DNA of 64,000 bases from Candidatus Hermodarchaeota archaeon (GTDB taxonomy: Archaea > Asgardarchaeota > Hermodarchaeia > Hermodarchaeales > Hermodarchaeaceae): positions 1-64,000 of the forward strand of contig JAEOTO010000031.1 in assembly GCA_016839805.1 (NCBI GenBank), in the 5' to 3' direction. Positions 15,875 to 35,159 of this stretch are shown piece by piece. The number at the start of each line of letters is the position of its first letter. Within the stretch, counting starts at the first letter, position 1. The notes beneath the pieces were generated by a model. The model did not search any database. It saw only the letters and a list, made by a program, of their open reading frames with translations, and had not been told where the DNA came from. The translations under genes and the position numbers were made by a program.

Positions 15875-16810
15875 TCATTGTATTCGTCGGGTTAGTGGGT
15901 GCACCTCGCATGTTCGGTTCTTACAGGCTGTACATTCTGAACTTTGATGGACCCAATAGCGATCGAAGCGATCGACGAATTGAGATACAAAATCAGGATT
16001 ATTTGTTGCAGTGGCTTGTTCGCCGATACCTGACAGCCCCTTTGCGGTGAAGTTCGCGCTGCCTTCGAGGACTTCTGTTTCGTCGATGATTAGAGCTTTG
16101 ATATGCATCTGAGCACAAACCAGAATTTCAATCGTGGATGAGTCCTGAAGTAGTTTCTCGACAGCTTCTTGGAAGTGCTTTGAGGTTGCACCAAAGGCTT
16201 CAGGTTCTCGGATGATGATTCTGACCGTTACCCCTTCTTTCGATTTAGCTACGAGACGGTCGATAAGATTTACTTCACAACTTTCGGTACCAACGGTGAT
16301 AGTTTTGACATCTGTTAGATTCTGCACCATGATACGGATGCTTTGACTTGTACACTCTAACATTTCGACCATCTTACACGCGATAGCAATGCCATTGAGT
16401 AACTGATGTTGAGTGGGTTCTACATCTCCCTCTTCTTGCACTACTTCGTTGTCAGCATTAGAGACCAGTGATTCAGGGGATGCTTCTTCACTGGCGGGGG
16501 CATGTAGCGGTTCGTCGCTTTCTAGAGTTGGGGGTTGTGAAGATGTGGGATAGAAACTGTCTAACGCCTCTACTAGATCAATTGGTAAACTTTCACCACG
16601 ACGGAGCACCTTAGTAATTTCCACAAGAATTCTTGCACGTTTGTATGCGATTTTATGGGCGGAGCCTGTAGAGTGTTTCGCAATTTCCTTGAAGGCTTCG
16701 GCGGCTTTGAGGGCAGCTTCGGAGGCGTTGTAAAAGTCGCCTTGACCCATGAATTTGCGAATCAAGAGTAAAGCTTCTCGTGCTACTCGACCGAGTCGCG
16801 TTGTATTCAC
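15875..16810 (-). CDS. MIT-like helical domain fused to a single-HKD PLD-fold domain
   Basis: A 311-residue protein. Residues 5-72 are a three-helix unit (ALLLIRKFMGQGDFYNASEA, AAEAFKEIAKH, IAYKRARILVEITKVL) that resembles MIT domains. Residues 73-135 are an acidic linker. Residues 137-290 are a phospholipase-D fold with one HKD motif: H236-x-K238, D243, then EGSANFT at 249-255. A C-terminal C293-C296-C301-H304 cluster may bind zinc. MIT-PLD order is that of eukaryotic MITD1, which binds ESCRT-III and membranes; the MIT part here is an inference. Single-HKD proteins also include Nuc-type nucleases that work as dimers. It lies about 80 nt downstream of the VirB4-like ATPase. Confidence 0.65.
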   Translation of the reverse strand: MNTTRLGRVAREALLLIRKFMGQGDFYNASEAALKAAEAFKEIAKHSTGSAHKIAYKRARILVEITKVLRRGESLPIDLVEALDSFYPTSSQPPTLESDEPLHAPASEEASPESLVSNADNEVVQEEGDVEPTQHQLLNGIAIACKMVEMLECTSQSIRIMVQNLTDVKTITVGTESCEVNLIDRLVAKSKEGVTVRIIIREPEAFGATSKHFQEAVEKLLQDSSTIEILVCAQMHIKALIIDETEVLEGSANFTAKGLSGIGEQATATNNPDFVSQFVDRFDRYWVHQSSECTACKNRTCEVHPLTRRIQ

Positions 16811-16890: not shown

Positions 16891-18336
16891 TCAAGGTTGG
16901 GGAGAATTGGTTGGACTTGATATTGTGAAATATTGTGCGTATTCAGCAAGTGCGGACTCCCCCTTTGGAGTAATGGTAAATACTGTGCGCCGATAGGGGC
17001 GCTTTCCCATTTCATGAGATTGGATATATCGGTGTGAGATGAGGGTTTCTAGGAGGTAGACAACTAAATCATCAGCATATCCGCTAGTTTGCGAAAGAGC
17101 AGTAGGAGTTAGTTGGTATTCACGTAAGAGCCCAAGAATGCGAACGGCTTCTTCTAAATAGTTCGTGAAATCTTTGTGGAGCATTGTGGGAGAAGGCAGA
17201 ATTTCAGGAGGTTGACTTGGGAGCTGAACCGTGAATGGATCGTAGTCAATTCCAAGGGGCCGGGGGGGCAGAGCAGTGATGCGAACAGGAATTGCCGTTT
17301 GTAGATCGGGACGTGTCATTAGAGCTGTTCCGGGTTCTAAGGTACGTAGCAATTCTCGTTGATGATGACTTTCACGTTTTGTTGAGTAAGGACTGGTGCG
17401 AATTCCAGAAAGTTTGAGTGGAACCTGGATGGCATCGATATCTCGTTTGAGTTTCAGTTGATGGACGATGAGGGTGCCAAATAGTCCCAGGGTTTCAGGG
17501 TAAAGCTGAGCTGGATGGTTTCCACTGAGATGAAGTGCGATATCGGATTGGGATAAGCGGTGTTGCCAATGACGAATATCTTTGATGCCTTCTATTTCTT
17601 TTTGGTATGTGCCTGAGGAATTGAATAGATACAAGTCGGCGTCATCGATGAGAAGGATAAGGGGGGGAATAAGGGTGCTTGGTTTGTGTTCTAGCCGCAA
17701 GGCACAAGCTTTTGCCAGAATTAAGTTAATCAGGAAGGTGTGGATTTGTCGATTTGATATAGGGCATTCGATAACTGTGATGCCACTGGAGATGAGCTGG
17801 GCAAATTGTGGGTGTGAATTCCCAGTAAAACAGGCCCCAGCAAGACCAGAAGTTAATGAGGAAAACAGCCGTTCAAGAAATTGAGCGTCGCGGCGTTCAC
17901 TAAAGTCAGAAAATTCACCTCGAGCTTGATAGGCACGAATTTCGTCAAGCAGATCTAACAATGTGGGTGGGGAATGAATTGAATAGATGTTTGCAAGTAA
18001 TCTTTGGAGAAGTAACCACTGTTTATCAGATAAAGCAAAAGGGTGTAAGGCGGCAATCAGCAGATCCGTATAAGAATTAATTTCATCAAGGTTTTCAGTA
18101 TCTAAGGGATTGATGCGAAGATTATGACCTAGTTTGTAGATTCGACATTCGGGTGTATATTGTACCAGGTTCCGATAGGTAGATCTTGTGGTAATAATAA
18201 TGTAAGCAAAAGCCCGACGTGATGCTTCGAGGGCTATACGTTGATTAGTTTGGATTCGAGATTTGGTCTGACCGAGAGTAAGAAGACCAGCAGAAAGGTC
18301 GTCGAAGCGGAGACCAACCCGAGTTTCTGATTGCAT
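16891..18336 (-). CDS. VirB4/HerA-like ATPase domain, entered by likely -1 frameshift
   Basis: From ATG 18336 this is 481 residues, but the frame is open without any start codon up to the slippery site at 18489, and that part (FLTGAESVRLF, IPAEFIVPENLESDLFLGY) looks like the family's lead-in to the P-loop. The P-loop position reads LLTLGQTKSRIQTNQR, lacking GKS/T. RINPLD and Walker B LILLIDDADLYL are present. A C-terminal winged helix covers about 395-465. VirB4/HerA ATPases drive DNA or protein transfer; this one may bind but not hydrolyse ATP. If frameshifted, the fused chain would be 835 residues, a usual VirB4 length. Confidence 0.7.
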   Translation of the reverse strand: MQSETRVGLRFDDLSAGLLTLGQTKSRIQTNQRIALEASRRAFAYIIITTRSTYRNLVQYTPECRIYKLGHNLRINPLDTENLDEINSYTDLLIAALHPFALSDKQWLLLQRLLANIYSIHSPPTLLDLLDEIRAYQARGEFSDFSERRDAQFLERLFSSLTSGLAGACFTGNSHPQFAQLISSGITVIECPISNRQIHTFLINLILAKACALRLEHKPSTLIPPLILLIDDADLYLFNSSGTYQKEIEGIKDIRHWQHRLSQSDIALHLSGNHPAQLYPETLGLFGTLIVHQLKLKRDIDAIQVPLKLSGIRTSPYSTKRESHHQRELLRTLEPGTALMTRPDLQTAIPVRITALPPRPLGIDYDPFTVQLPSQPPEILPSPTMLHKDFTNYLEEAVRILGLLREYQLTPTALSQTSGYADDLVVYLLETLISHRYIQSHEMGKRPYRRTVFTITPKGESALAEYAQYFTISSPTNSPQP

Positions 18337-18439
18337 GGTTTCTGTTTCATAAGTATACCCAAGGAAGAGATCCGATTCTAAGTTTTCAGGAACTATGAAT
18401 TCAGCAGGGATTGAACTGCCCAGACCCTTAGCAAGTAAT

Positions 18440-18489
18440 GGCGGAATCCGCAGGAAGAGGCGAACAGATTCCGCCCCGGTCAGAAAAAA
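18440..18489 (-). promoter_or_regulatory. Programmed -1 ribosomal frameshift signal
   Basis: On the minus strand the zero frame reads AAT TTT TTC TGA. The heptamer T TTT TTC spans 18489-18483. It is followed by a 7-nt spacer (TGACCGG, containing the stop) and a perfect 9-bp stem: GGCGGAATC (18475-18467) pairs with GATTCCGCC (18448-18440), with an 18-nt loop. A -1 slip reads TTT TTT CTG ACC and enters the ATPase frame. Slippery X XXY YYZ, 5-9 nt spacer and downstream stem are the known elements of -1 frameshifting. The alternative is a homopolymer error in the run of six. Confidence 0.65.
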
Positions 18490-19397
18490 TTGGGTGGTTT
18501 CCCTTGAAGGAGAAGTGATCGAATCCCATCTTCGAGTTCGGATCCGGTAAGGCGTCGGAGACGGATATGAGGGTAGGCTGTTCGGAAGGCAATTTGCAGG
18601 GTTTGGAGGTCATGTTGAGTCTGATTTTCAAGAACTTCTTCGGATACACTATCATTGCTGATTGAGCTATCTCGGCGTGTTCCTAAGAGTAACCGGGTTT
18701 TCCACATTCCACCCCATCGCCATGTAAATGCGGCTTGCTGGGTATTATCGAGATTACTCAAAGTATTTTGTGCCTCATTGGAGAGAGCAGCATGACTTGG
18801 CAGGGATTGGCTGGGAACTGGTGCATGTAATAGAGCGTAGAAGAGGGGGACGCCAGCACTGTATATGGCTCGGATAAAGGCGGACATATTTCCGCGTATA
18901 CCGACTGGAACTTTATCGATGACTAAGAGTGCTGTGGCAGAGATTCCTCCTTTGTGCGACATTAGTAGCACATCCTGATTAGGTGTAAGAAAAAATTCTA
19001 CATCAGCGAGTGGATAGATTTGGTGATTTTCAGTTGTGCTGAGATGTTTCTTGCTTTTGAAGACATTTCGCAGAATCTGTCGAGTACGTGGAAAGAAGAT
19101 GATGGTACTTATACTTTGTAATAGGAGAAAGAGTCCGATTGCTGTTGGTGTCGTGATAAGTGGAATGAGTATCATGCACAGTGCGGTATTAATGATGAGG
19201 GTTAGAAACCAGGATCTGCAAGAGCGTGTCTGTTGTTGATCTTCTGTGCTTCGCCAGAACCACCCGGTAAAACGCATTTCATCTTGGATGGAGACGGTTG
19301 GTCGTTGGCGTGAGGACGATGGGGTACCGGCTTGGGCCGCCAGAACACGTGTTTGTGTAGAAGTAGTTTCAAACCAAGATTCTTTTTTTGCACACAT
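18480..19397 (-). CDS. VirB4-like N-terminal domain with two membrane helices (zero-frame product)
   Basis: A 305-residue protein from ATG 19397 (AGGTGA SD, 8-nt spacing). A polar N-terminus is followed by two close membrane helices (FLTLIINTALCMILIPLI and AIGLFLLLQSISTIIFF, about residues 80-120). A soluble domain then has VEFFLTPNQDVLLMSHKGG, LLVIDKVPVGIRGNMSAF, KTRLLLGTRRDS and IRLRRLTGSELEDGIRSLL. That order resembles the domain preceding the ATPase in VirB4/HerA-type proteins. The frame stops at TGA 18480 directly after the slippery run. Two products are expected: this short form and a fusion to the ATPase. A longer frame to 19553 overlaps the upstream gene and is not needed. Confidence 0.65.
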   Translation of the reverse strand: MCAKKESWFETTSTQTRVLAAQAGTPSSSRQRPTVSIQDEMRFTGWFWRSTEDQQQTRSCRSWFLTLIINTALCMILIPLITTPTAIGLFLLLQSISTIIFFPRTRQILRNVFKSKKHLSTTENHQIYPLADVEFFLTPNQDVLLMSHKGGISATALLVIDKVPVGIRGNMSAFIRAIYSAGVPLFYALLHAPVPSQSLPSHAALSNEAQNTLSNLDNTQQAAFTWRWGGMWKTRLLLGTRRDSSISNDSVSEEVLENQTQHDLQTLQIAFRTAYPHIRLRRLTGSELEDGIRSLLLQGKPPNFF

Positions 19398-19411: not shown

Positions 19412-19918
19412 TTAAAGGATGAGTAAGAGGAAGAGACCGAAGCCAAGACCGCTGAGGAAGAGGCTGAAGGTTGAATAGGTCTTGAGCTCGAGTATGTATG
19501 GAACTGTTAGGAAGGGTAGGGGAACAAGAAGGGGAAGAAAGATTAGGACCCATTGGAAGGTGTAGGGTCTATTCAGATAGTTTACAACAAGGAACGTGAT
19601 AGTAAAAATACTGGATACACAGGCGTAGAGGGCAAATTGTGACCATGAGTGCTTATATGGAGATTGGTTAGCTGAGGGTAGGATTATTTCTTGAATGTGG
19701 GGTTGTAGATTCGTATCTAACTTGTTATTATTTGTGGAGTGAAGGGGCTGTCCTTGATTTTGATTAGGTTGTGTGAAAACAAGTAAGAGATGTTGTTTTG
19801 CAAAGTCATTGGATTGTTTGCCTTGTCGGGTTTTTCGATAGATTTGCCATGCAATTAGAATCTCAATGAAAAATCCGATGATGATAATGATTGTGAGAGA
19901 ATTAAACCAGTTAGCCAT
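19412..19918 (-). CDS. Small membrane protein of unknown function
   Basis: 168 residues from ATG 19918, which overlaps the end of the M28-like gene by 8 nt and has AAGGTGAG as SD. There is one N-terminal helix (SLTIIIIIGFFIEILIAWQI), a polar loop of about 70 residues and three C-terminal helices (FALYACVSSIFTITFLVVNY, WVLIFLPLLVPLPFLTVPYI, FSLFLSGLGFGLFLLLIL). No family is recognised. It ends 14 nt before the VirB4-like gene, so it is very likely a partner of that ATPase at the membrane. Confidence 0.7.
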   Translation of the reverse strand: MANWFNSLTIIIIIGFFIEILIAWQIYRKTRQGKQSNDFAKQHLLLVFTQPNQNQGQPLHSTNNNKLDTNLQPHIQEIILPSANQSPYKHSWSQFALYACVSSIFTITFLVVNYLNRPYTFQWVLIFLPLLVPLPFLTVPYILELKTYSTFSLFLSGLGFGLFLLLIL

Positions 19919-22900
19919 GTGGGGACTCACCTTCATTTGTTTTGGAGTTCATCTCCTTTGAGAAAAAGTGAAAGAGCCGGTTTACCAGTTCAGGATTTTC
20001 CCCTTTCACTTTTATGTGGAGTTCATTGCCGTTTTTCTCCCAGGTCAATACCACCCGATTTTTTGTACGGTCCTTTGTCTCAGCCTTGTTTAATCCAAAC
20101 TCTTTCATTGCTTGGGTGATTTGTCGGTGGACTTCAGGGGGAAGGATATTGAGCTGATGCTCTGTGGCATCTGTTGAGGACCCCCATTTCATCTCTCGAG
20201 AATTTGTGCCAGGAGGAATGAGGAGAGATGATGGCGTGGATTGAGTAGGAGGGTTGCGCTGGGCGCGTTTGCCGTTACGCATCCATATTATTCCGATAAC
20301 GCAGAGGCTGATAAGGAAGATTGGTGGGATTAATGTGATGATGAGATTTATTGTGGAGTGAGCAATGAAAATTTGATTTTCGACTGACATGATTCGGTAG
20401 GTTTCAAGATAGAGTGCGATGGAAACATAACGAATGCCGGTATCCATAATGGTTTGCGGGATGTACTGAACTGTTAATGAAATTGTTCGGATTTCATTGG
20501 GCTGGAGGATGGTTTGTGTAGAGCCGTAAAAATTCGCTTCGCCAACAATTTCAAAAGCGCGAGTTTGGGATCCAAGATTGGTTATATTTACTGTTACTTG
20601 GAAAGGTGTGTTTTGGATAACATCTTGGGGCATCTCAATGAGTGTTAACATGAAGGCAACCTGTACATTTAGAGGAACATGTTCACAATGTAGAATTAGG
20701 TCGGGTGTTGAAATCAGAAGAGTAAGGTTATGGAGTTGTGATGGACAATTGGGGAGAATTTGAACGTGTAGATGGTAGAGATTTTCACCTGGGGTGAGTA
20801 GGAGATTGGTTTTATTGATGTATCCAACTAGGGTTGCTGAGAGGCTTAGGTTGATGTTTGTTGGAGCATCCAAGCTTGAATTAATGAAACAGAATACTGA
20901 GAGCCGTTCACCTTGTTGAACGGATGACTCGTATTGTAAATAAGTTGAACATAGTGACAGTGGCGTTAAAATAAAGAGGGATTCAAGGTCAGGCTCAATG
21001 CAGGCATGGATGTAATGTGAGGCTGGGTTAGTGAGGAAGAGTGGAGTAGTGGTAATCCCTGATTCATTAGTGACTAGATGAGTGAGTTGTGGTTTGGGGA
21101 AATATTTGCAAGTGATGTTTACCTGGACTGGCTGATTAGAGTATCCTGTCCAATTGATGAAATTATAGACAAGAACATAAAGGATAGGAGTAGTTCCAAC
21201 GCGTGGATTTTTTTGGTCGATTCCTTGGCAAATCCCAAACGTAGTTTGATCGAGGAGCCATGAAAGACTGTTAGTAGCAATATGACCGCTATTGGAAGGT
21301 TGAGGTGTATTGAGTCCTAAGAAAACAATCGGAATTTGTGTTGATGTGGGTGGGAAATAGGCGAGGCTGCACCAGGAGGCATTTCCTACTAGGATGAGAG
21401 TGGGTGTTAATGGAGCAACCGCATAAACGAGGGGGCTATTTCTAAAGAGTTGTGCATCCTCTCCCATTAGTAAATGGGGACTTTGAATAATTGGATGAAA
21501 TGCCTTGAATCCCTCTACTCCGAGTGATTGGGTACCCCTTGAAGTTGTGGAGGTCATGGTTAATTCATGGAGTAACTGACAGCCAGCTTTTCCGAGAGCT
21601 AGAATAGGAATTGAGAGGTTAACTAATCGGAGTGCATTGATAGGTATGATGGTGAAACCTGGATCAAGGACCAGAGTCTGATATTGGTGGAGAGATGGAT
21701 CCAGGTAATCAGTGAGGGTGATATTGTTACTAGGGGATAATGTGGGATACCATTGAGCAAGGTAGTTGGGTGGTGTTGGGGGAAGATGGTAGGTTAGGGC
21801 AAGAATCGTTGCGATGATTAAACGAGTGATGTTTAATAGATTAATAGTACTGCATTGGATTTCTGTATCATGGAATGTGTGTTTGTACGGGTCAGGGTAT
21901 TGATCTGTTGAGAGAGTGAGTGAAGGGATAGAATTAGTATGAAACATCCACTCTGAAATACTCCATGCTTGAGACTTTTGAACTTCTTCCAACGTATTTG
22001 CGCGAGGTTTTTCAGTATCTAAGAGTGAGAATCCTAGATTAGTACTTGCAGCGGTTAAATTTGAAAGAAGGGGTTGGACGCCTTCATTGGGGTACCGATA
22101 GATTGCCAGGTTAGTGGGGAGGAACATACCCTTGTAGGCAATCTCATCGAGATTTAGAGCTATAGAGGTGGATTTGTTGATTCCTAATGTAGGTAGTCCG
22201 TGTTCTAGGAGTTGTAGTGATCCCCAAAGGGATAGGGAGCCATTGCCTTCTTCCCCACTGAGGAATGCGAATAGTACATTCCAATTCTGGTAAATTCCTG
22301 AGTGTTGCGTTAATACACAGATTGTTTCAAGGAGTGTTACGACACCGGAGGCATCGTCATTCGCACCTGGAGCGTTTGAGGATGCTAGACCTAATAGCGT
22401 GAAACGTGCTGAGTCAACGTGGCATGTGATGAGTAAGGTGGGAGCAGCCGGATTAACATCCCAGGGTGTCACGTATAGATTTCGAGTCCAGTATGTCTGA
22501 TAGACGTAGTCGATTCCATTCCAGACTCTTTTGGGTATGATGAACCAGTCTTCTGTATACGAAACGCCTATTTGGGTTAGGGAAGAGGTCACCCAGTCTA
22601 GTGAGGCATTTCCGTCGATATTGAAGGGATGACGACTGTCAAACCCTGTTAGGATGTGGAGAAGACCCAATAGACGCGTCACATTTACACGTGTTGCTAA
22701 TTCTCGCTGCCAGTGGGCTAGGCTTGATATATTTGCCACATATGCAACGGAAGGAGGGGACGATTCGGGTGGAGAAACATAGCAAGAATGTTGGAGGGGA
22801 AAAGCTGCTGTACGTGGCGGGGAACCGAGGGGAAAATGAGACGCAGATCTTGGCACTTCAGATACAGGTTGAGCTGAAGCTATGGCACCTAGCAGCAAGC

Positions 22901-22937
22901 TAGAAACAAATAGCGTATAGAGTGTGACGCGTCTCAT
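19911..22937 (-). CDS. M28-family peptidase-like surface protein, membrane anchored
   Basis: A protein of about 1008 residues from ATG 22937. A signal peptide (LYTLFVSSLLLGAIASA) is followed by an M28 zinc aminopeptidase domain: TCHVDSARF (H about 173), APGANDDASGV (bridging Asp about 195), LSGEEGNGS (Glu pair about 229-230), NLDEIAYKG and YKHTFHDTE (last His). Beta-rich domains with NPASHYI- and NITNLGSQTR-type strands follow. Near residue 895 there is one membrane helix (LIPPIFLISLCVIGIIWM), then a cytoplasmic tail ending in an amphipathic region. The family removes N-terminal amino acids or folds as a receptor-like domain. It is first in the operon with the VirB4-like ATPase. Confidence 0.82.
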   Translation of the reverse strand: MRRVTLYTLFVSSLLLGAIASAQPVSEVPRSASHFPLGSPPRTAAFPLQHSCYVSPPESSPPSVAYVANISSLAHWQRELATRVNVTRLLGLLHILTGFDSRHPFNIDGNASLDWVTSSLTQIGVSYTEDWFIIPKRVWNGIDYVYQTYWTRNLYVTPWDVNPAAPTLLITCHVDSARFTLLGLASSNAPGANDDASGVVTLLETICVLTQHSGIYQNWNVLFAFLSGEEGNGSLSLWGSLQLLEHGLPTLGINKSTSIALNLDEIAYKGMFLPTNLAIYRYPNEGVQPLLSNLTAASTNLGFSLLDTEKPRANTLEEVQKSQAWSISEWMFHTNSIPSLTLSTDQYPDPYKHTFHDTEIQCSTINLLNITRLIIATILALTYHLPPTPPNYLAQWYPTLSPSNNITLTDYLDPSLHQYQTLVLDPGFTIIPINALRLVNLSIPILALGKAGCQLLHELTMTSTTSRGTQSLGVEGFKAFHPIIQSPHLLMGEDAQLFRNSPLVYAVAPLTPTLILVGNASWCSLAYFPPTSTQIPIVFLGLNTPQPSNSGHIATNSLSWLLDQTTFGICQGIDQKNPRVGTTPILYVLVYNFINWTGYSNQPVQVNITCKYFPKPQLTHLVTNESGITTTPLFLTNPASHYIHACIEPDLESLFILTPLSLCSTYLQYESSVQQGERLSVFCFINSSLDAPTNINLSLSATLVGYINKTNLLLTPGENLYHLHVQILPNCPSQLHNLTLLISTPDLILHCEHVPLNVQVAFMLTLIEMPQDVIQNTPFQVTVNITNLGSQTRAFEIVGEANFYGSTQTILQPNEIRTISLTVQYIPQTIMDTGIRYVSIALYLETYRIMSVENQIFIAHSTINLIITLIPPIFLISLCVIGIIWMRNGKRAQRNPPTQSTPSSLLIPPGTNSREMKWGSSTDATEHQLNILPPEVHRQITQAMKEFGLNKAETKDRTKNRVVLTWEKNGNELHIKVKGENPELVNRLFHFFSKEMNSKTNEGESPHG

Positions 22938-22965
22938 GGGTTCTTCGATGAGTTGCGCCAATTTG

Positions 22966-22976
22966 AATTGTTTATA
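22966..22976 (-). promoter_or_regulatory. TATA box of the M28/VirB4-like operon
   Basis: On the minus strand CGCATATAAACAATTC contains a TATA element 25-35 nt before ATG 22937. This would give a leaderless or nearly leaderless transcript and argues against the upstream TTG at 22961. Confidence 0.45.
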
Positions 22977-23122
22977 TGCGTTATGGTCTTGATTTTTAAA
23001 TCAATGATGATTAATACTTCCCAAGCAGAACTTTTTAGGAGGTTTTTTGATAGGAAAAAACAATTCTTTAAATATCACAGAGAGACGCTATTTTTACTAA
23101 CTGGGTAATGGGAGAAAATAAA

Positions 23123-23374
23123 ATGTCGAAAGTTCCAGATACCCCTGAAAATTTAGAAATCTGTAAACGATTTTGTGGACCCTGCCCTACCTTCAAACCC
23201 AACGAACTGAATAAGATTCCCCCGAATGCACTATTCTGTGCACGTGGCGCTTCCGAAAAACCCGCTGAAGAGATTGAAGATAAAGGTTGCAGTTGCTTCG
23301 GTTGTGAGGTCTTTCAGAAATACAAAATTAGTGGCGGGTGGTTCTGCATGCACGGTGTCGAGGGGCGCAAGTAG
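23123..23374 (+). CDS. DUF2769 cysteine-rich protein
   Basis: 83 residues with the DUF2769 pattern: ICKRFCGPCPTF near the N-terminus, LFCARGAS in the middle, GCSCFGCEVFQKY and WFCMHG at the end, about nine cysteines in all. They probably bind metal, zinc or an Fe-S cluster. The function of this family is unknown. ATG 23123 has GGGAGA upstream at 8 nt; an ATG at 23108 would add MGENK. A pyrimidine run at 23383-23405 downstream looks like a terminator. Confidence 0.8.
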   Translation: MSKVPDTPENLEICKRFCGPCPTFKPNELNKIPPNALFCARGASEKPAEEIEDKGCSCFGCEVFQKYKISGGWFCMHGVEGRK

Positions 23375-23382
23375 CCCCTACC

Positions 23383-23405
23383 ATTCTTTCTTTTTTCTTT
23401 CTCTC
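23383..23405 (+). terminator. Pyrimidine/T-rich terminator after the DUF2769 gene
   Basis: A run of T and C (TTCTTTCTTTTTTCTTTCTC) begins 9 nt after the stop codon. Archaeal RNA polymerase stops at T-tracts without needing a hairpin. No other function is apparent. Confidence 0.4.
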
Positions 23406-23425
23406 TTCGAATTATGATAATTACA

Positions 23426-23439
23426 CTTCTATAGAAAAC
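23426..23439. promoter_or_regulatory. CTTCTATAGAAAAC element, copy 1
   Basis: This 14-bp sequence recurs exactly at 24144-24157. Its core TTCTATAGAA is a perfect 10-bp palindrome. Both copies lie in intergenic DNA upstream of plus-strand genes, so it may be a shared regulator site. Confidence 0.35.
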
Positions 23440-23600
23440 CAAGAAAAATCTGAATAATGCTAAATTAAAATCAGTCTTATTTGCAGGTATTATATAAGAT
23501 GTACAAGGAGCGCTTGGGCGTAAACTTTTATTATGACAGCTCGTTGTATTAGAGATTGGATGGGAATACCAGTGCTCACCCAATAGAGGGAGGCACGTAG

Positions 23601-24047
23601 ATGCTTATCACACTCACGATTTGTTTGTTGATCTGGCTGATACTTCGATCCAAGAAATCACTCGTCCGATTTACAGTGTTTCTCCTGGCCTTGGGCATAG
23701 CCGCAGTTACCGCATATTTCAGCGCATTTTGGTTGATAGACCAGATTCAATTGGGACCTTACACCTACACCTTTTGGGCTCAGACAAGTTTTCCTCTATC
23801 CATTGTCGGGGTTCACGATGAAACCAATAACATCTACGAATACGCAGTCATGTTAGGTGGACCCGGTGGTTTAGGGGTGTTCAAATCGACGCTCTATTAT
23901 CCCACTGATGTATCAGCCCAGTTAGCCCAGTTACGGCTTGAAATGGGTATCATTATCTGGGTTCTAACAAGTGTCGTAACCACACTCGTTCTTCTGATAG
24001 CTGAAGCAATTCGAAAGACATCGCAGCGTGAACCGTCTTCCCAGTGA
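23601..24047 (+). CDS. Membrane protein of unknown function, 148 aa
   Basis: Starts at ATG 23601 with GGGAGG upstream. It has two N-terminal helices (TLTICLLIWLILRSKKSLVR and FTVFLLALGIAAVTAYFSAF), an extracellular loop of about 70 residues with IVGVHDETNNIYEY and a Gly-rich GGPGGLGVF, and one C-terminal helix (MGIIIWVLTSVVTTLVLLIA). No family is recognised. It sits alone between the DUF2769 gene and the helicase. Confidence 0.65.
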   Translation: MLITLTICLLIWLILRSKKSLVRFTVFLLALGIAAVTAYFSAFWLIDQIQLGPYTYTFWAQTSFPLSIVGVHDETNNIYEYAVMLGGPGGLGVFKSTLYYPTDVSAQLAQLRLEMGIIIWVLTSVVTTLVLLIAEAIRKTSQREPSSQ

Positions 24048-24143
24048 ATGGGTATTAGAATTCTGTGGTGCGGAGAAGAACAAGATATGTGGCTTACTTC
24101 GGTCAGGGTTTCAAACTAAGAAATGATTCAGAATAATTTTCAT

Positions 24144-24166
24144 CTTCTATAGAAAACATATAAAAA
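24144..24166 (+). promoter_or_regulatory. Helicase promoter: CTTCTATAGAAAAC copy 2 and TATA box
   Basis: The palindromic element (24144-24157) directly abuts a TATA-like ACATATAAAAAT (24156-24166). The expected start site is near 24190. The element therefore sits where TFB contacts the BRE, a common place for archaeal activators or repressors. Confidence 0.45.
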
Positions 24167-24190
24167 TCAACTTAATTCCGCCGCAATCTG

Positions 24191-24206
24191 AAACACTACA
24201 GTGTTT
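24191..24206. promoter_or_regulatory. Inverted repeat AAACACT-AC-AGTGTTT, possible operator
   Basis: A perfect 7-bp inverted repeat with a 2-nt spacer lies at the predicted transcription start and 18 nt before the helicase GTG at 24224. A dimeric repressor bound there would block initiation. It could also form a small hairpin in the leader. Confidence 0.4.
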
Positions 24207-24223
24207 GATTCGAGGCGTATTAT

Positions 24224-26428
24224 GTGAAACCAGAGCACAGAAGGACTCCTAATACAGTGCCAGTTGGTGATCGTTTCTCAGACTCTGAGTGGGGGATTCA
24301 TCCGGCTATTGCAGATATCTTGATTGATGAAGGGATTCGACAACTTCACACTATTCAATATCAGGCTTTGAAGCAAGGTGCGCTTCAAGGAGAAAATCTG
24401 CTCGTGTGCTCACCGAGTGGATCAGGAAAGACCCTGATTGGCGAATTGGTGTGTGTTCACAAGGGGATGGATGGGCAGAAATCCTTCTTTCTCGTTCCAT
24501 TGCGTGCCTTGGCTAGTGAAAAATTTCTACGATTTCAACGTCGGTATCACAAATTGGGTTTACGAATCGGTATTTCCACAGGAGATTATATAACGGAGCC
24601 TAGTGAACTCGAGAAAATCGACATAGCTATTCTCACCTATGAACGCTTTGACTGGTTAATTCGAATGGAGCCAGATTGGTTAGATCAATTAGGAGCAGTC
24701 GTGATTGATGAAATTCATAACATCGACACCCAAATCCGCGGTCCCCGCTTAGAATGTTCTATTACCCGATTACGTCAAGCTTATCCAAAGATTCAAATTA
24801 TTGGACTAAGTGCTACTGTCGCGAATCCTCAGGAACTAGGGGAATGGATGGGATGTAAATTAATTTATTCTGAGGACAGACCGGTGGCCCTATTGCATCG
24901 AGTAATCATTGCCCCCAAACCCCTGCAAACACTTGCTAGATTAGTTCGAGCCACAGTTCGGAAAGGAGGACAAGTACTCATTTTTACTCCTTCAAGACGT
25001 GAAGCGGAGCGAGTCAGTCTTACTCTCGTAAATGTCATTCGTCCACTTCTTGAATCGACTGACAAGAAGGCCCTCGAAGAATTCCATAGTCTTATCAATT
25101 TTTCTGAGGAAACTCCATTTGTACATGAGAGACTCGCAAAACGCTTACAGTTCGGAGTTGCGTTTCACCACGCAGGTCTTGATACCACGTCACGCCGAAT
25201 TATCGAAGCCCTGTACCAGAACCAGCTATTGAAAGTAATATGTTGCACAACCACGCTTGGATCTGGCATTAACACTCCTGCGCGTTTAGTGGTTTTGTTT
25301 CAGCCACTACTTACGCCACAAAGCCATAATGGTCAGTATACCATATCGCATCTTAAGGCCAATCGCGTACACCAGATTCTTGGTCGTGCAGGACGTCTTG
25401 GTCAGGAATCACTTGGATTTGCTATCCTTCTTGCCAACGGCCCCAAAGAAGCTGAAACTCTTCACGAATTATATTTCAATAATGAAAACGGAAACTCCGT
25501 GCCACGGTATAATCAGGTGTGTAGTCAACTGTTCTCTATTCAAAATCTCCGGGAACAAATCCTAGTCCTTGCAGCTCAATCAAATGGCACATCGCCTACA
25601 GAGATTGAACAGTTTTTCAAACGAACCTTTTGGTGGCATCAGAACCAGACAAAGAATCCACAATCCCGATTCGAACAGCTCATCCGAATTGGGAGCCTTG
25701 ATATTGAAACTTTGCTCTCAACCCAAAGTCAACTCAAATCAATCCAACGCCATAAAGAACGCGAACCGCGAGTAGAATTAACGCTTCTTGATCAAGATAG
25801 AATTGAAGGAAGGATTTTCGATGGTGGTTGGTTTACTAGCGCGTTTACCAAGTCAGGACCAGTGTGTAGCTGCTGCCAACAGCGGGAAGACTTAACCCTT
25901 TGCTCCCATCTATTAGCTTTGGCTCGATTTTCAGCAACACAATATCCTCAGTATGCACGTGAAATCGTACCAAGAAGCCTCAAAGAAGAATTTGTCCTTG
26001 ATTACCTAGAACGCCATGGATTACTTGCCCTGAGTGATAATCGATATTTAGCTACCATCTTGGGAAAAGTAGCTGTTAAGTTGTATATAAGACCAGAAAC
26101 CGCATTATGGATTCGATCTCGTCTACCTGTTATCACCTCAAGCTCTAGTTTCATCGAAGTTATAGTTCAGGGATTACGTTTTGAGTGCGACCCCCCGAAC
26201 AGTGTTGGATTATCCCGGGGTCTACTACATCTTGCAGAGAAAGCAGATTCCTCAATAGCCATTGCAGCGCAAAGAGAGAAGGTTGAGATAGGAGATTTAG
26301 AGAGCATACTCCAAACGGTTGTTTGGCTAGCAAAAGTAACGATAACAATTGCACGTTCAGTTGGTATTGATGGAGTTGCTTTGATAGGGGAACCGATTGT
26401 CCAAGCGTGGGACGGGTATCTAGGCTAG
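24224..26428 (+). CDS. Ski2/Hel308-like SF2 helicase with SWIM-type zinc motif
   Basis: A 734-residue superfamily 2 helicase: Q-motif region IRQLHTIQYQAL, Walker A SPSGSGKT (about 64-71), PLRALASEK, box II VIDEIHNID, LSATV, FHHAGLD, TLGSGINTPAR and motif VI HQILGRAGR. This matches Hel308/Ski2-type 3'-5' helicases that act on forks and recombination intermediates. After the two motor domains a CxC...CxH set (VCSCCQQREDLTLCSHLLAL, about 546-565) fits a SWIM zinc finger, not typical of Hel308. The C-terminal 170 residues are helical and lack the usual RAR-type ending. The start is GTG 24224. It is convergent with the RadB-like gene. Confidence 0.82.
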   Translation: MKPEHRRTPNTVPVGDRFSDSEWGIHPAIADILIDEGIRQLHTIQYQALKQGALQGENLLVCSPSGSGKTLIGELVCVHKGMDGQKSFFLVPLRALASEKFLRFQRRYHKLGLRIGISTGDYITEPSELEKIDIAILTYERFDWLIRMEPDWLDQLGAVVIDEIHNIDTQIRGPRLECSITRLRQAYPKIQIIGLSATVANPQELGEWMGCKLIYSEDRPVALLHRVIIAPKPLQTLARLVRATVRKGGQVLIFTPSRREAERVSLTLVNVIRPLLESTDKKALEEFHSLINFSEETPFVHERLAKRLQFGVAFHHAGLDTTSRRIIEALYQNQLLKVICCTTTLGSGINTPARLVVLFQPLLTPQSHNGQYTISHLKANRVHQILGRAGRLGQESLGFAILLANGPKEAETLHELYFNNENGNSVPRYNQVCSQLFSIQNLREQILVLAAQSNGTSPTEIEQFFKRTFWWHQNQTKNPQSRFEQLIRIGSLDIETLLSTQSQLKSIQRHKEREPRVELTLLDQDRIEGRIFDGGWFTSAFTKSGPVCSCCQQREDLTLCSHLLALARFSATQYPQYAREIVPRSLKEEFVLDYLERHGLLALSDNRYLATILGKVAVKLYIRPETALWIRSRLPVITSSSSFIEVIVQGLRFECDPPNSVGLSRGLLHLAEKADSSIAIAAQREKVEIGDLESILQTVVWLAKVTITIARSVGIDGVALIGEPIVQAWDGYLG

Positions 26429-26451
26429 TTTTTTCAAAGCTTCTCTGCGAC

Positions 26452-27159
26452 TCACAGAGCTTGGAAACCTAAGTTATCGAGTTGGACTAAAAGGCGTTGA
26501 ACATTTGGATGTTTTCGACGACGAATTACCATCCAACGGTGAGTCGAATCTAGTCCCTTTCGGCGTTGGAGTTGAATTTCTAATATAGCATATCGGCTGA
26601 TGGCATCACCGCCTACGGGTCGGTCTTCCCCTTGCCAGGTAGAGATTTGGTTAATAACAAGGATTGCCAATTCATAATCTCGGGCTAGTCCGAGTAAGCG
26701 AGGAAGTTGATGTTCTGTTAACTCTCTGTAAAAAGTAATTGCTGTTTGAGGAGTCATTCGTTGACGGTATAATCCCGTGATTGGATCAATGACGATAAGA
26801 CGTATGGTTGGATCCAAGAATAGATGAAGTTTGGAAATAAGCTCAGATTGCTCGTTGAAGGTTCGGGGATAAAAGAGGGTGAGACGATGAGCCGGGAAAG
26901 AAGGGGCGGCTGCTAATTGAAGTAGACGCCGTGGGTTGTAGCTGCGAGCACAATCAATGATGAAACATCCACTACCTTTTCTGGCGAGGTGAAGAAATGC
27001 TTCCATTGCAAGGGTAGATTTTCCTACTCCTGCAGGTCCGTAGATATGGGTAATTCCGCCAAGTGGTAAACCACCTAATCCTACATCAATGAAGTGATTT
27101 CCTGTAAGAAGTGCTGGGGGGTTTTCGTGGTTGTGTGGACTAGTTGAGAGGAACGGCAC
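26452..27159 (-). CDS. RadB/RecA-like ATPase
   Basis: About 235 residues forming a RecA-fold core without the N-terminal HhH domain of RadA. Features are GLGGLPLGGITHIYGPAGVG with Walker A GPAGVGKST (about residues 42-50), a strand into FIIDCAR, Walker B LIVIDPITGL, and LAILVINQIST (L2 region). Size and form match RadB, an archaeal RadA paralogue that helps recombination. GTG 27159 is backed by GGGAGGA; a TTG start at 27195 is weaker. It overlaps the zinc-ribbon gene by 20 nt, so translation is coupled. Confidence 0.8.
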   Translation of the reverse strand: MPFLSTSPHNHENPPALLTGNHFIDVGLGGLPLGGITHIYGPAGVGKSTLAMEAFLHLARKGSGCFIIDCARSYNPRRLLQLAAAPSFPAHRLTLFYPRTFNEQSELISKLHLFLDPTIRLIVIDPITGLYRQRMTPQTAITFYRELTEHQLPRLLGLARDYELAILVINQISTWQGEDRPVGGDAISRYAILEIQLQRRKGLDSTHRWMVIRRRKHPNVQRLLVQLDNLGFQAL

Positions 27160-27565
27160 GTACAGTATCCTCCCGTTTTTCGAGGAACCCTTCAACCTTC
27201 AACAGTTCAATTGCCTCTTGGATCTCTTTGGGAAGTAATCCGACCTCAATACCTTGTTGATAGACTTCATGAATTGGTAACCATTGAGGATATGTTGATC
27301 GATGCCATCGGAGTATTTGAAGTAGTTGCTTTGCAGGGCTTTGATTGAGGTGTAGGTTTGGAGGTTGTTTCACGTTATGTAAGGCATATTGAGATGTTTG
27401 CACTAGCTGTTGGGCTTCGCGGGAGCTATTCACGATTTGTCCATCTAATTCATGAAGTGGTACTTTCGCGTCACAGCGTGGGCAATAATTACGATGAATC
27501 CCAATTGGTACATAAGTGAACTCTTTACATTTGGGACACTGAACAACTTTGTATTTGCGTGCCAT
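27140..27565 (-). CDS. Zinc-ribbon plus winged-helix protein
   Basis: 141 residues from ATG 27565 with GGTGAT just upstream. The N-terminus has two CxxC pairs (VQCPKCKEFTYVP and NYCPRCDAKVPL), a zinc ribbon. The C-terminal 70 residues (LLQILRWHRSTYPQWLPIHE, IQEAIELLKVEGFLEKRED) form a winged helix like those at the ends of archaeal replication proteins. It is likely a nucleic-acid-binding partner of the RadB-like ATPase, whose gene it overlaps. The start overlaps the end of the giant surface-protein gene. Confidence 0.7.
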   Translation of the reverse strand: MARKYKVVQCPKCKEFTYVPIGIHRNYCPRCDAKVPLHELDGQIVNSSREAQQLVQTSQYALHNVKQPPNLHLNQSPAKQLLQILRWHRSTYPQWLPIHEVYQQGIEVGLLPKEIQEAIELLKVEGFLEKREDTVRAVPLN

Positions 27566-27567
27566 TC

Positions 27568-30500
27568 TCAATCACCATTTTTATTTGGGTCATCAAGGTT
27601 TGAAGATGGATTTTCTTGATCGTCTAGTTCTAATCTTAAACTATCTGAAGAATCTGGGACAATTGTTTGATTGGGGAGAAACAGTTGCATTAAGCGGTTT
27701 AGCCTATTGCGTAGTCGTCGGAAGATGAGGATTCCTGAAAGTACACCAATGATCATAACCACCAGCGAGATGAGAATAATTGGAGAAAAGATACCAGCGA
27801 TTTGATTATGGGGAATTCGGACAAGGAAAGGCATCGATTGGGAACAGGGACCAAATCCGCGTTGTCCACTGAATGTGACATAAACAGTATAGATGCCGGG
27901 TTGAGGAGTCGGAATTGCAAGTTGGCTTAACCCGGTTTCGTTTGTTCTAAGCACGGTCTCAAGAATAATTGTGGAATCTTGAGTAATGAGTTGCAACGTA
28001 ATATTCGCAGTTAATCCATATACGGACGTACCGTTCACATAGATTAGCTGGATATCGATTGTTATTGATGGAGTTAGATAAAAGGCTTCGACTTCTAACG
28101 GGTCGATAATGAGGGTAAGTGTTGGTGTAATATTGGGTAACAGGTTAATCAGGACCAAAGATGAGCTTTCACTGTACACATCAGGAGAATCAAAGCGTCC
28201 AAATAGCACGACAATGATATGTTGTCCAGCAAGGTCTGAATAAGCGCTGGGTAGTGATGTGATACCGTATCCCTGATTAATAGAGAAATCATGTTGCCAC
28301 ACACCATCCCAGAATAGCGAAGCTGTGCCATTAGGAAGTCCTGAATTCCCCGTGGTAACAAAGACCTCAAGTTCGACTGTTTCTCCAAGAAAGAGAGTGG
28401 GAGTATTAGTTGTAACTTCTAAAGCTGAAGTGTCCCGAATTTGCAAGGATAGGTCAGAGGAGAGCCATCGGTCATAGGATGGGGTTTCAGCGATTTCCAC
28501 CTGAAGGGATCGTAGTCCTACTGGAACTGATACTAACCATTGACAAATGGCATGACCAGTTGCATTCGTTATTGATGAATCGATAAGCTCTTGATTTTCG
28601 TAGAGACTAATCAACATATTTGAGAGAGGTGAACTATTCAGACTATCTGTGACTTTGAGGAGAATGTGACTTTGATTTCCGATGAATAGAGTAGATGAGG
28701 GAAGGATTTGGATAGTGCATGTGATTTGACGGCGATTGATGTTTATGTGTGTGGAACTTGCACTAGCTTGGTACATATCCTTCCCGTTGAATGCATAGGT
28801 GATGAACCAATGACCAGCTGTATCGGGAGTCCAAGAACATGTGGCGATTCCCGAAGCGTTAGTCATTTCGGTAGTTATGATAATCGGGGAGGTCTCACCA
28901 GGTCGAGTAATATTGAAATGAACCTGATAATTCACAAGGGGCGCTCCGCTATCATTCCAAAGACCAACTTGTTGTGTAACTTGTTCGGAGAGCATAGGGA
29001 TTGAAGGAAGCGATTGTTCGGCAGTGAAGTATGTATCGAAAATAAGAATTGAGAGAAAATCAGTTGTAGTAAAGGGGATACAATAAGGAACTGTGGCATT
29101 CATTCTAAGCAGATGCGCGATTGGTGCAAGGTCTTCTGTCGAGATGATGACCTCATATCGACCACTACCCTGATGGATGGGATAGTAAACGTCTGCAGTT
29201 GTTTCAAGAGTTATGGAGAGATTTCCATTCGTAAGCCCTGCTTCAGTGCCGATGGCTCCTTCTAGTGTGAGCTGTAGAGATACATTGAGAGGAACACTAC
29301 GAGGTACTTGCAAACCTGGTGTATAGGTTTGTTGCAAAGCGAGAGTTCCCCAAACTTCACAAGTATCGTGGTAAAACATGTAGCACGGAATAGCTCCTGG
29401 AGCAAAAGCGATAAGCGTAAGGTTGTGGGGTCCAAGGGCACCTGGTGTTGCTGGAATGGATTCTTGAAGCTCCCAATATCTTGGCTGAGAAAGGTCACAG
29501 GAATTTAAAAACAGATGGTCGAAGATGAAGGCTCCTACACTAATATCATCATGAAGCAGACCCCAACGAGTTTCAGTCACCACAGCAGAGAAATCGACGG
29601 CATCTCCGATCGAGAACGTGCCATTCGGAAAACTTGCGTGGGATAGATCTAATACAGGATTCACATCGAGTTGTGAGAGGAACGATAAATGATTTGTAAG
29701 CTGAAGTGCGAGATCCACTAAATAAGGTGTCCATTTCTGGGAGGGCAAAGCAGGTTCAATGACGAGTCCTTCATATGTGAACGCACTAAGTAGTGACGTT
29801 TTGATTTCATCACGATCAAGGAGATTGAGAGCCTCACTGTAGAGTCCAGTTTCAACGAGAAGGAAGAGAATCTCTGTCGCGTAATATGAGGTGATGATGG
29901 TTGGGCCATTTGAAAGATAAGCACTCGCATAGGTTGCTAATTTCTGGCCATCTAGTCCTGTAAGGCTCGGATCCAGATAGGCGTAAGCTCTAAGCCCATA
30001 GAGAGTGTCAGCGAGATGTCCCCCAGCAGAACGCCAGGGAGCGGGATATGGGACAGAATGATCTGAATCATGGAAGAATTGATGAGTTCCATTATCGTGT
30101 AAGCAGTCGAGTAAGTACGCTAAGACACTGGATGAGTCGGTTAAGTCTACTGGTTGGCCTCCAAGAGCAGCATGAGCAATGATATTCCAACAAGTAGTGT
30201 CGAATCGAAAGGTGAGATCGCTTTCCCGACCTACATAGAGGTGGTGGATCCCGAACATCCCTAAATAACCGGAAGCACTCGATTGGCAGGCTTCGATTTC
30301 TTGACGGATTTGTATATTCCGGGTTAACCAAGGAGTTCCTGAGAGATTCAAGATGTCGGTTAAGAGGGCATATGAATAATGGTAGATGGGTCCGAATGTT
30401 CCTGCTTCGACCACCATGCGGTCAGGCGTGGGTGTATCAGTATCGGTGCCTACAGTCGAGGGCAGTTGGTGAGAACAAAACGAGATTCGTGTGGAAGACC

Positions 30501-32505
30501 AACAATTCTCAAGATACGCTAGAAAAACGGTGAGATTGATGACAGACAGAGCGTCACATTGGAATAAAGCTGACAGAATGTGTGTGCTGGTAAGAAAATC
30601 ACCAAATATTGCAGGTTCTGTTGCCCCGCCCCAGTTGGAACAACAACTGGTGAGAAATTCAGTGAGCGTAGAATTGGTCCCAGAGAGCCCACCTGTGAGG
30701 GCTAGACTATGCACAGCATACCAGGTCTCATCGGGTGAATTATGAAAGTCATGAAGAGTGTCTCCTCGCCCCCAACCTCCATTTGCGAATTGGTTGGTCA
30801 AAATAAAGGCACGACAGCTAGTGACATTAAATAACTCCAAGGAATCGATGATATCAAGGATTTGAATGGCACATGCAGTGCCTAACACCCATTCGTCAGA
30901 ATCCATATTGAGCTTTGTATCAAAGATACTCGATCCGAATGGATCTTCACACGCGGCTAAAAATGTAAGGAGAGCTGTCTGATTGATAGAATTTACTGCA
31001 CCTAGCTTGTTGAGAGCAACTAGCGCATCCAGGCTATGAACAAGACTTGTGGTTATGCTACCACTAATAGAAGCGTAAAAGCCTCCAAACTCAGGAGTCT
31101 CTGAATTCACTTCTTGGCATGCTGCGATATAATTGATTGCGGCTACCTCATCAATTTTAGAAAGTTGTCCAAGTTCGGATAAAGCTTCGATGGCAAATCG
31201 TGTAGCTCTCAGAGTTGTTTGAGGAACTCCGAGTTCAGTGAAGAAACCACCTGTGACAGCGTCTTGGCAGCTCGCAATATAATCACCAATTTGATTTTGG
31301 TCAAGCTGAGCGAGAATTCCTAGAGTCCTAGAAGTGAGTACACTCAAACTAGTAGTAACACAGCGATCGTGAAGTTGTGGGCTAGATAAGTCCTCGAAGC
31401 ATCCCTGAATAGGATTGAAACAATTAAGGAGCCATGATTTGAACGCTGAGATATTGACAGGTAATCCATAACTTTCAACCAGATCAGCTACATAATACGT
31501 GAAGGCGAGAGAAGGTTCTAGGGGGTATCCAAAGCCGCCTAGACCTTGTACCGCCCAGAAATCGTTTATGGGAGGATCAAAGAGTTGTAATACTGCAAAT
31601 GTGGTTCCAAGTCGTTGTTGCAAACTGGGTCGAACAAGCCAATGTAAGAGATTTTCGCAGAATAGAATTCCTTCGGTACTAAGATGGGCAACTTGATCCA
31701 GACCCCAGTAGTAGATGTAAGGATTAGTAGAAAGGGCTCGAAACCAGAGTAATTGAGCTCCTGATCCTAAGGCATTGGACCCAAGGATTTCTACTTTGTC
31801 GGGTAGTTCCGAGAGACGGTAGGCATCATAGCTGATATGTTGAGAATAAATCCCAAGCCGCTGATTGACAAATGGGATTGAATGGGGAAGTGTGAAAATT
31901 TGTTGATCTGCATCTGAGGTCCATAGATAACTTTCTATACTGACTACAAAATCCATGATAGGATCAAAACCCCAGAGTTGATCAAGGACCTCATGAGCGT
32001 ATCCTAAAAGGAGGATAGGATAAGAGCTGGCTCCGATTATCTGGGCTGATGCCTGTGACACACCGTAGGTTGCATTACTTGATCCTACGCTCGGAGTTAT
32101 TATTAGCAAATCATATTCTAATTGCGTTGGAAGAGCATTGATGTGAATTGAAGTAGTATTGAATCCCATATTCTCAAAGAGAGTAATCCAAACATGAACT
32201 GGCTCTTGTCCTGATTCATTAACAAGATCACCATAAACGAGAAGCAGGTTTCCAAATGGAAGTGACTCGAGGATTCCTTCTTGAGGATTAGGCTCTGGAA
32301 CAGGAGGGCTACGAGGGTCACTGAGCTTTGATGATAATAAGGAATTTTGTAAGTTCAATTCCTCTAGAGGAACATCGTCAGTTGATTCTAGTGCAGTTGA
32401 TTGGGTTGGGTAGTTAGTGGGTGCATTTGCGGGTAAACCAAGTAGGAGAAAAAGCATGACAGAAAGGACTATTAGTTGAGGAATTGCTTTTGTCGTGGAA
32501 ATCAT
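27568..32505 (-). CDS. Giant surface protein with alpha/alpha-toroid repeats and Ig-like domains
   Basis: A 1645-residue protein: signal peptide (LIVLSVMLFLLLGLPANA), a Rossmann-like segment (about 90-290), then about 600 residues of helical repeats of prenyltransferase/terpene-cyclase type, for example IGDYIASCQDAVTGGFF, AINYIAACQEVNS and CRAFILTNQFANGGWGRGD. Several beta-sandwich domains follow (LFIGNQSHILLKVTDSL, LFLGETVELEVFV). One membrane helix (SPIILISLVVMIIGVLSGIL) and a cytoplasmic tail of about 60 residues end it. The toroid repeats recall the thioester domain of alpha-2-macroglobulins, but no CGEQ-type thioester is seen. It probably binds something outside the cell. Confidence 0.75.
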   Translation of the reverse strand: MISTTKAIPQLIVLSVMLFLLLGLPANAPTNYPTQSTALESTDDVPLEELNLQNSLLSSKLSDPRSPPVPEPNPQEGILESLPFGNLLLVYGDLVNESGQEPVHVWITLFENMGFNTTSIHINALPTQLEYDLLIITPSVGSSNATYGVSQASAQIIGASSYPILLLGYAHEVLDQLWGFDPIMDFVVSIESYLWTSDADQQIFTLPHSIPFVNQRLGIYSQHISYDAYRLSELPDKVEILGSNALGSGAQLLWFRALSTNPYIYYWGLDQVAHLSTEGILFCENLLHWLVRPSLQQRLGTTFAVLQLFDPPINDFWAVQGLGGFGYPLEPSLAFTYYVADLVESYGLPVNISAFKSWLLNCFNPIQGCFEDLSSPQLHDRCVTTSLSVLTSRTLGILAQLDQNQIGDYIASCQDAVTGGFFTELGVPQTTLRATRFAIEALSELGQLSKIDEVAAINYIAACQEVNSETPEFGGFYASISGSITTSLVHSLDALVALNKLGAVNSINQTALLTFLAACEDPFGSSIFDTKLNMDSDEWVLGTACAIQILDIIDSLELFNVTSCRAFILTNQFANGGWGRGDTLHDFHNSPDETWYAVHSLALTGGLSGTNSTLTEFLTSCCSNWGGATEPAIFGDFLTSTHILSALFQCDALSVINLTVFLAYLENCWSSTRISFCSHQLPSTVGTDTDTPTPDRMVVEAGTFGPIYHYSYALLTDILNLSGTPWLTRNIQIRQEIEACQSSASGYLGMFGIHHLYVGRESDLTFRFDTTCWNIIAHAALGGQPVDLTDSSSVLAYLLDCLHDNGTHQFFHDSDHSVPYPAPWRSAGGHLADTLYGLRAYAYLDPSLTGLDGQKLATYASAYLSNGPTIITSYYATEILFLLVETGLYSEALNLLDRDEIKTSLLSAFTYEGLVIEPALPSQKWTPYLVDLALQLTNHLSFLSQLDVNPVLDLSHASFPNGTFSIGDAVDFSAVVTETRWGLLHDDISVGAFIFDHLFLNSCDLSQPRYWELQESIPATPGALGPHNLTLIAFAPGAIPCYMFYHDTCEVWGTLALQQTYTPGLQVPRSVPLNVSLQLTLEGAIGTEAGLTNGNLSITLETTADVYYPIHQGSGRYEVIISTEDLAPIAHLLRMNATVPYCIPFTTTDFLSILIFDTYFTAEQSLPSIPMLSEQVTQQVGLWNDSGAPLVNYQVHFNITRPGETSPIIITTEMTNASGIATCSWTPDTAGHWFITYAFNGKDMYQASASSTHININRRQITCTIQILPSSTLFIGNQSHILLKVTDSLNSSPLSNMLISLYENQELIDSSITNATGHAICQWLVSVPVGLRSLQVEIAETPSYDRWLSSDLSLQIRDTSALEVTTNTPTLFLGETVELEVFVTTGNSGLPNGTASLFWDGVWQHDFSINQGYGITSLPSAYSDLAGQHIIVVLFGRFDSPDVYSESSSLVLINLLPNITPTLTLIIDPLEVEAFYLTPSITIDIQLIYVNGTSVYGLTANITLQLITQDSTIILETVLRTNETGLSQLAIPTPQPGIYTVYVTFSGQRGFGPCSQSMPFLVRIPHNQIAGIFSPIILISLVVMIIGVLSGILIFRRLRNRLNRLMQLFLPNQTIVPDSSDSLRLELDDQENPSSNLDDPNKNGD

Positions 32506-32558
32506 TGAGTTGCTATCTCCCCAGGAATGGGTGTGCGGCGTGGGTTTTAGGTTCGTTT

Positions 32559-34420: not shown

Positions 34421-34486
34421 GGTTTTACCACCAAATTTGACCTGATTGTTGAAGCGTCGAATTGGGGCGCAGATTTTGGTTGATTT

Positions 34487-35155: not shown

Positions 35156-35159
35156 CGGT

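Follow-up and report, generated by a model that had tools for sequence, protein, structure and literature searches.

According to a 2021 review, a single -1 frameshift had been shown in an archaeal host gene, that of fucA1, and it had no known purpose (PMC8211752). This frameshift was demonstrated both in vitro and in vivo, and the gene is split only in strains of S. solfataricus, with full-length genes in the relatives (PMC8211752). In bacteria, the dnaX gene (tau/gamma) carries a site of the X XXY YYZ type, A_AAA_AAG, with a downstream stem and an upstream Shine-Dalgarno (SD)-like element (PMC3711429), and has short and long ATPase-fold forms. In a magnesium chelatase cluster, which has members in Methanocaldococcus and Methanococcus, genes with a conserved -1 frameshift are annotated as pairs, and fused single-ORF homologues exist elsewhere (PMC3711429).

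The gene analyzed here lies on the minus strand of a 64,000-nucleotide stretch of a Candidatus Hermodarchaeota archaeon contig, referred to below as the window. Like fucA1, which shifts at A AAA AAT and has a putative stem-loop, it is an archaeal host gene in two ORFs, with a homopolymeric heptamer at the proposed -1 shift; unlike the strain-confined fucA1, it keeps both the site and the split across several deep lineages, and there is no experimental demonstration for the Asgard gene. The sequence-only reading of the window had named a Sulfolobus alpha-fucosidase as archaeal precedent, which corresponds to fucA1 of Saccharolobus solfataricus (PMC8211752). With dnaX the gene shares the heptamer class, the downstream stem and predicted short and long forms of an ATPase-fold protein, but the heptamer is T_TTT_TTC, the protein family is another one and archaeal, and an upstream SD-like element is notable only in Jordarchaeia. 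It is also comparable to the magnesium chelatase cluster as a conserved, here probable, -1 frameshift that separates what is fused elsewhere, although the latter is a different gene with an A-run slippery site. In domain layout (transmembrane segments, a VirB4-like N-terminal domain and a C-terminal HerA/VirB4-like domain) it resembles CedD of the archaeal DNA-import system (PMC11868833). The word "frameshift" was absent from the Ced papers searched and from a study of recoded stop codons in Asgard archaea (PMC9723677), and no report of frameshifting in the split-gene family or in Asgard archaea was found in the open-access literature, most subscription papers and all bioRxiv preprints not being covered. 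Within the reach of these searches, the mechanism belongs to a known kind, and the novelty lies in the gene, the phylum and how deeply the arrangement is conserved.

In the absence of protein or RNA data, we consider it highly probable that the gene is expressed by programmed -1 ribosomal frameshifting, with a 305-residue form and an 835-residue fusion as products. The features of the site are collected in Table 1. Read along the minus strand, the junction is ...CCA CCC AAT TTT TTC TGA CCG G..., and the AAT TTT TTC TGA string, the 7-nt spacer, the 9-bp stem and the 18-nt loop were all present where the sequence-only reading had placed them, as was the -1 frame it had claimed, which is open for 530 codons after TTC. 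The length of the fusion is the sum of 305 and 530 residues, with the ATG at 19397 as its first codon; the gene before it ends only a short way upstream, at 19412. An in-frame X XXY YYZ heptamer occurred within the last 20 codons of 24 of the 152 ORFs of at least 60 residues in the window, and only 2 of those 24 sites had a -1 frame open for at least 100 codons. The other of the two (~48656) was set aside as a spurious ORF before an independent gene. Stop codon readthrough was rejected as the next frame-0 stop follows 7-29 codons on in every locus.

Table 1. Features of the frameshift site and the two coding frames, in window coordinates.
Feature	Position	Strand	Details
Slippery heptamer T TTT TTC	18483..18489	minus	identical in 8 loci of 3 lineages
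Frame-0 stop TGA	18480..18482	minus	immediately 3' of heptamer
Spacer, heptamer to stem	18476..18482	minus	7 nt including the stop
Stem 5' arm GGCGGAATC	18467..18475	minus	12-bp version 18464-18475
Stem 3' arm GATTCCGCC	18440..18448	minus	12-bp version 18440-18451
Weak Shine-Dalgarno-like AAGGGA	18500..18505	minus	upstream of heptamer
Frame-0 ORF with stop (305-aa short form)	18480..19397	minus	ATG 19397
Frame-0 ORF, longer reading			from ATG 19553, is open
-1-frame part	16891..18483	minus	530 codons + stop
Predicted junction peptide			window fusion SLLLQGKPPNFFLTGAESVR; Jordarchaeia version ...GGGVSHFFLTGLEA...

Homologues were sought in 59 relatives and then in 228 genomes of the Asgard phylum. 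The split together with the heptamer was found in eight loci, namely the window, G004 and G007 in Hermodarchaeia, G034, G041, G020 and G057 in Jordarchaeia, and G114 in family f27. All eight have T TTT TTC TRA at the same codon with a -1 frame reading Phe-Phe-Leu-Thr-Gly; the stop is TAA in six and TGA in the others, and the codon before Phe-Phe is AAT, CAT or CGT, such that the residue varies (Asn/His/Arg) and the third base is always T. The C-terminal halves are about 31% identical between Hermodarchaeia and Jordarchaeia. The sequence-only reading had proposed a comparison of homologues and had held that homologues lacking the site could refute it; the split, heptamer and stop were kept in 8 genomes of 3 clades, and the homologues without the heptamer were single ORFs or had a second gene with another start. 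The arrangement is kept across class-level Asgard lineages. Because a motor gene is split at an identical slippery spot in several lineages, the ribosome very probably slips there.

The main rival is programmed transcriptional slippage, whereby RNA polymerase would add a U at the run of six T and bring the second half into frame without any shift by the ribosome. One extra U would give the same fusion and the homopolymer run is conserved at the site, but in 8/8 loci this run is T6, under the cited lengths (A over 7, T over 8; PMC3711429), and what is conserved is precisely T_TTT_TTC, placed in the phase of the ribosome and beside the stop. The stems also sit at the spacing expected for ribosomal stimulators, the criterion applied being a structure 5-9 nt from the heptamer. 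Slippage by the polymerase at T6 cannot be excluded from sequence alone; we consider it improbable.

The RNA downstream of the heptamer supports strong folding in Hermodarchaeia and in G114. The 9-bp arms in the window (GGCGGAATC / GATTCCGCC) are exactly complementary around the 18-nt loop, and in the RNAfold prediction 12 bp enclose a 12-nt loop (dG -20.8, shuffle z -3.7). The stem is the most stable 40-nt window of both ORFs (0/879 as low). Corresponding ranks were 0/870 in G004, 1/826 in G007 and 2/862 in G114. The 12-bp stem begins 7 nt past the heptamer in the window and in G004, and a 14-bp stem begins 5 nt past it in G114; overall, strong stems lie 5-8 nt downstream in Hermodarchaeia and G114, with sequences unrelated to each other. 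Few sequences were available, and therefore stem covariation cannot be tested properly. A second genomic copy of TTTTTTCTGACCGG (C1:823) is antisense inside an unrelated ORF and was taken as chance.

The hairpin of Jordarchaeia is shorter and weaker (z -0.9 to -1.6), as in G020, where it reads TTGGAG-GCGA-CTCCAA. Since it is short and 6 to 52 of about 800 windows are as stable, the stimulator in Jordarchaeia is less certain than that of Hermodarchaeia and G114. The duplex formed by the SD-like element was stronger in Jordarchaeia (-9.8 to -12.6) than in the window, where at -5.5 (rank 84 of 885) it was not exceptional. By eye, a possible pseudoknot between the GCGG/GCGA loop of Jordarchaeia and a UCGC further downstream fits three loci (L006, L007, L008), and this pairing fails in 1 of the 4 Jordarchaeia sequences (L009/G057).

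The phase of nucleotide substitutions was compared on the two sides of the site. Between the window and G007, substitutions upstream were distributed 24/8/9 over the codon phases, with the excess at third positions of frame 0, and 14/8/27 over the 143 nt downstream, with the excess at third positions of the -1 frame. For two Jordarchaeia genomes (G034 versus G020) the counts were 15/0/0 upstream and 8/3/19 downstream, and the overlap just before the site kept to frame 0 (8/0/0). The substitution phase switches from frame 0 to -1 exactly at the heptamer. The site itself was unchanged within Jordarchaeia and between the window and G004, and only two changes separate the window from G007 (Asn to His, TGA to TAA). 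Ka/Ks between the window and G004 was 0.16 upstream, 0.07 over the first 49 codons after the site and 0.11 beyond, and these 49 codons precede any start codon. On these estimates, the start-less lead-in codons and both halves are under purifying selection. The phase switch and the Ka/Ks values thus speak against late initiation as well as against an assembly error or a pseudogene. So far as the sequences themselves can establish it, the site, the stem, their conservation, the switch of the selected frame and the absence of start codons are secure.

The sources are metagenome assemblies and homopolymers are error-prone, so that a sequencing or assembly error or a decaying pseudogene has to be weighed; the same arrangement in 8 separate assemblies and the strong purifying selection on both halves leave this explanation hardly credible. 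Two separate proteins could also be made if the second half were initiated on its own, either through coupled re-initiation close to the stop or from a start codon further on, and two ORFs with a plausible second start do exist in Baldrarchaeota and in family f5. Start-like codons are likewise found 5-17 codons past the site in Jordarchaeia and G114. In Hermodarchaeia, however, the -1 frame has no start until codon 41 or 51, though the earlier codons are conserved; in the window no ATG, GTG or TTG was present in this frame from 40 codons before to 51 after the T-run, the first canonical start coming 51 codons past it. Six loci have CTA as the -1 codon across the stop and the other two have CTG, so this codon cannot be a shared start, which refutes CTG re-initiation at the stop. 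Separate synthesis would also leave the invariant T_TTT_TTC, the stem and the gap-free match to fused homologues unexplained, and we regard it as very improbable.

The encoded protein was examined by fold as well as by profile. The second half has a HerA/VirB4 fold (HerA E 2.3e-12; VirB4 TM-score 0.73 by target length; model pLDDT 74). Winged-helix matches, all weak, lie at the C-terminal end of this half. The first half has two predicted transmembrane helices and a VirB4-N-terminal-like domain, for which the best structural hits were to TrwK/VirB4 with a probability of 0.96-1.00 but an E value of only 5.6e-3 and a weak model (pLDDT 63). The fold evidence thus supports the VirB4-like identification made in the sequence-only reading, with weaker support in the N-terminal half than in the C-terminal one. 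That reading had further described about 49 start-less codons as the family's lead-in to the P-loop; their membership of the family held, and the P-loop they were said to reach did not, the Walker A motif being degenerate in 12/12 aligned members (GQT-KSR / GGSQDER-type, no GK[ST]; ~18250-18280 in the window). An acidic, Walker-B-like IDDA motif and the HerA/VirB4 fold are retained despite this loss. As a consequence of the degenerate Walker A, ATPase activity is not to be assumed, and the whole aligned family may possibly be a pseudo-ATPase family, predicted from its motifs, that is widespread in Asgard archaea. CedD was the commonest NCBIfam match (9/12 members). The window protein scored 28 bits against the CedD profile (NF053655), the curated cut-off of which is 600 bits, and no match above this cut-off was found in 12 genomes. 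An identity with CedD was rejected, the score being far too low and CedD being matched better by other HerA-type proteins that this genome encodes.

Near the split gene are genes for a Rad51-like ATPase, a DEAD-box helicase, an M28-peptidase membrane protein and a four-TM protein. In Jordarchaeia, neighbors were judged by sequence and TM counts without a profile search, and a recurring ordered block was observed which resembles RadA-like protein / large membrane protein / four-TM protein / split gene. Recurrent Rad51/RadA-like proteins, SF2 helicases and large membrane and small TM proteins were also seen at 19412-37592 of the window and at L072, L073, L074, L076, L078 and L079. This recurrent neighborhood has the look of an Asgard system for DNA processing or DNA transfer that has not been described, and a membrane-associated role of the split gene in DNA transfer or recombination is our inference. 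Directly downstream of the frameshift gene (15875-16810) is a gene for a PLD-like (PLDc_2) domain protein.

Under programmed ribosomal frameshifting, translation in frame 0 would cover the transmembrane and VirB4-N-terminal-domain part, and at T TTT TTC two Phe-tRNAs would move back one base (TTT TTC to TTT TTT). The hairpin 5-8 nt downstream would help this slippage, as perhaps would the upstream SD-like element in Jordarchaeia. Ribosomes that slip would continue into the HerA/VirB4-fold domain and complete the 835-residue fusion, and those that do not would stop at once and release the 305-residue form without the motor-fold domain. The two products would probably fix the proportion of subunits with and without the motor in a membrane complex linked to DNA transfer or recombination. 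The ribosomal nature of the slippage, its rate, and the making and use of both products are inferred.

Other Asgard members of the family are organized differently. Single-ORF homologues (15 sampled) occur in families f3, f6, f8, f16 and f26 and in a second genus of f27 (G115); when the predicted fusion is aligned to these, no gap falls at the junction (...KPPNFFLTGAES... versus ...EQSVFYQTGIEN..., ...SEHKFLLSGREV...), and no T-run was present in the 7/7 checked at the DNA level. Baldrarchaeota (L010, L014) retain two frames but have TATATC in place of the run, or no run at all, and their second half has its own ATG (ATG-CGT), which lies within the first ORF and is preceded by GGAGG. Family f5 (L059, L060) has two ORFs in one frame with TGA between them and ATG or TTG just after. 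Family f27 is mixed, with the frameshift in one genus (L062/G114) and a single ORF in the other (L069/G115), representing a gain or a loss.

In the gene tree the frameshifted loci fell in three clades, and several branches were long. Grouping these loci as one clade was rejected (AU p 0.004), with the caveat that the tree is weakened by its long branches. Both a repeated origin and an ancestral frameshift that was later lost are compatible with these data, and the shared codon site favors, by inference, the ancestral alternative. That the frameshift predates the split of Hermodarchaeia, Jordarchaeia and f27, was kept because the ratio of motor-free to motor-bearing product matters, and was lost elsewhere by adoption of a single frame or of an own start is a scenario we hold to be evenly balanced between true and false.

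The locus presents a textbook signal in a membrane-anchored HerA/VirB4-type protein, against one earlier case in an archaeal host gene, and the site offers a compact cassette with which frameshifting in archaeal translation could be measured. The frameshifted, fused and re-started versions of one gene amount to a natural experiment on the retention of a frameshift.
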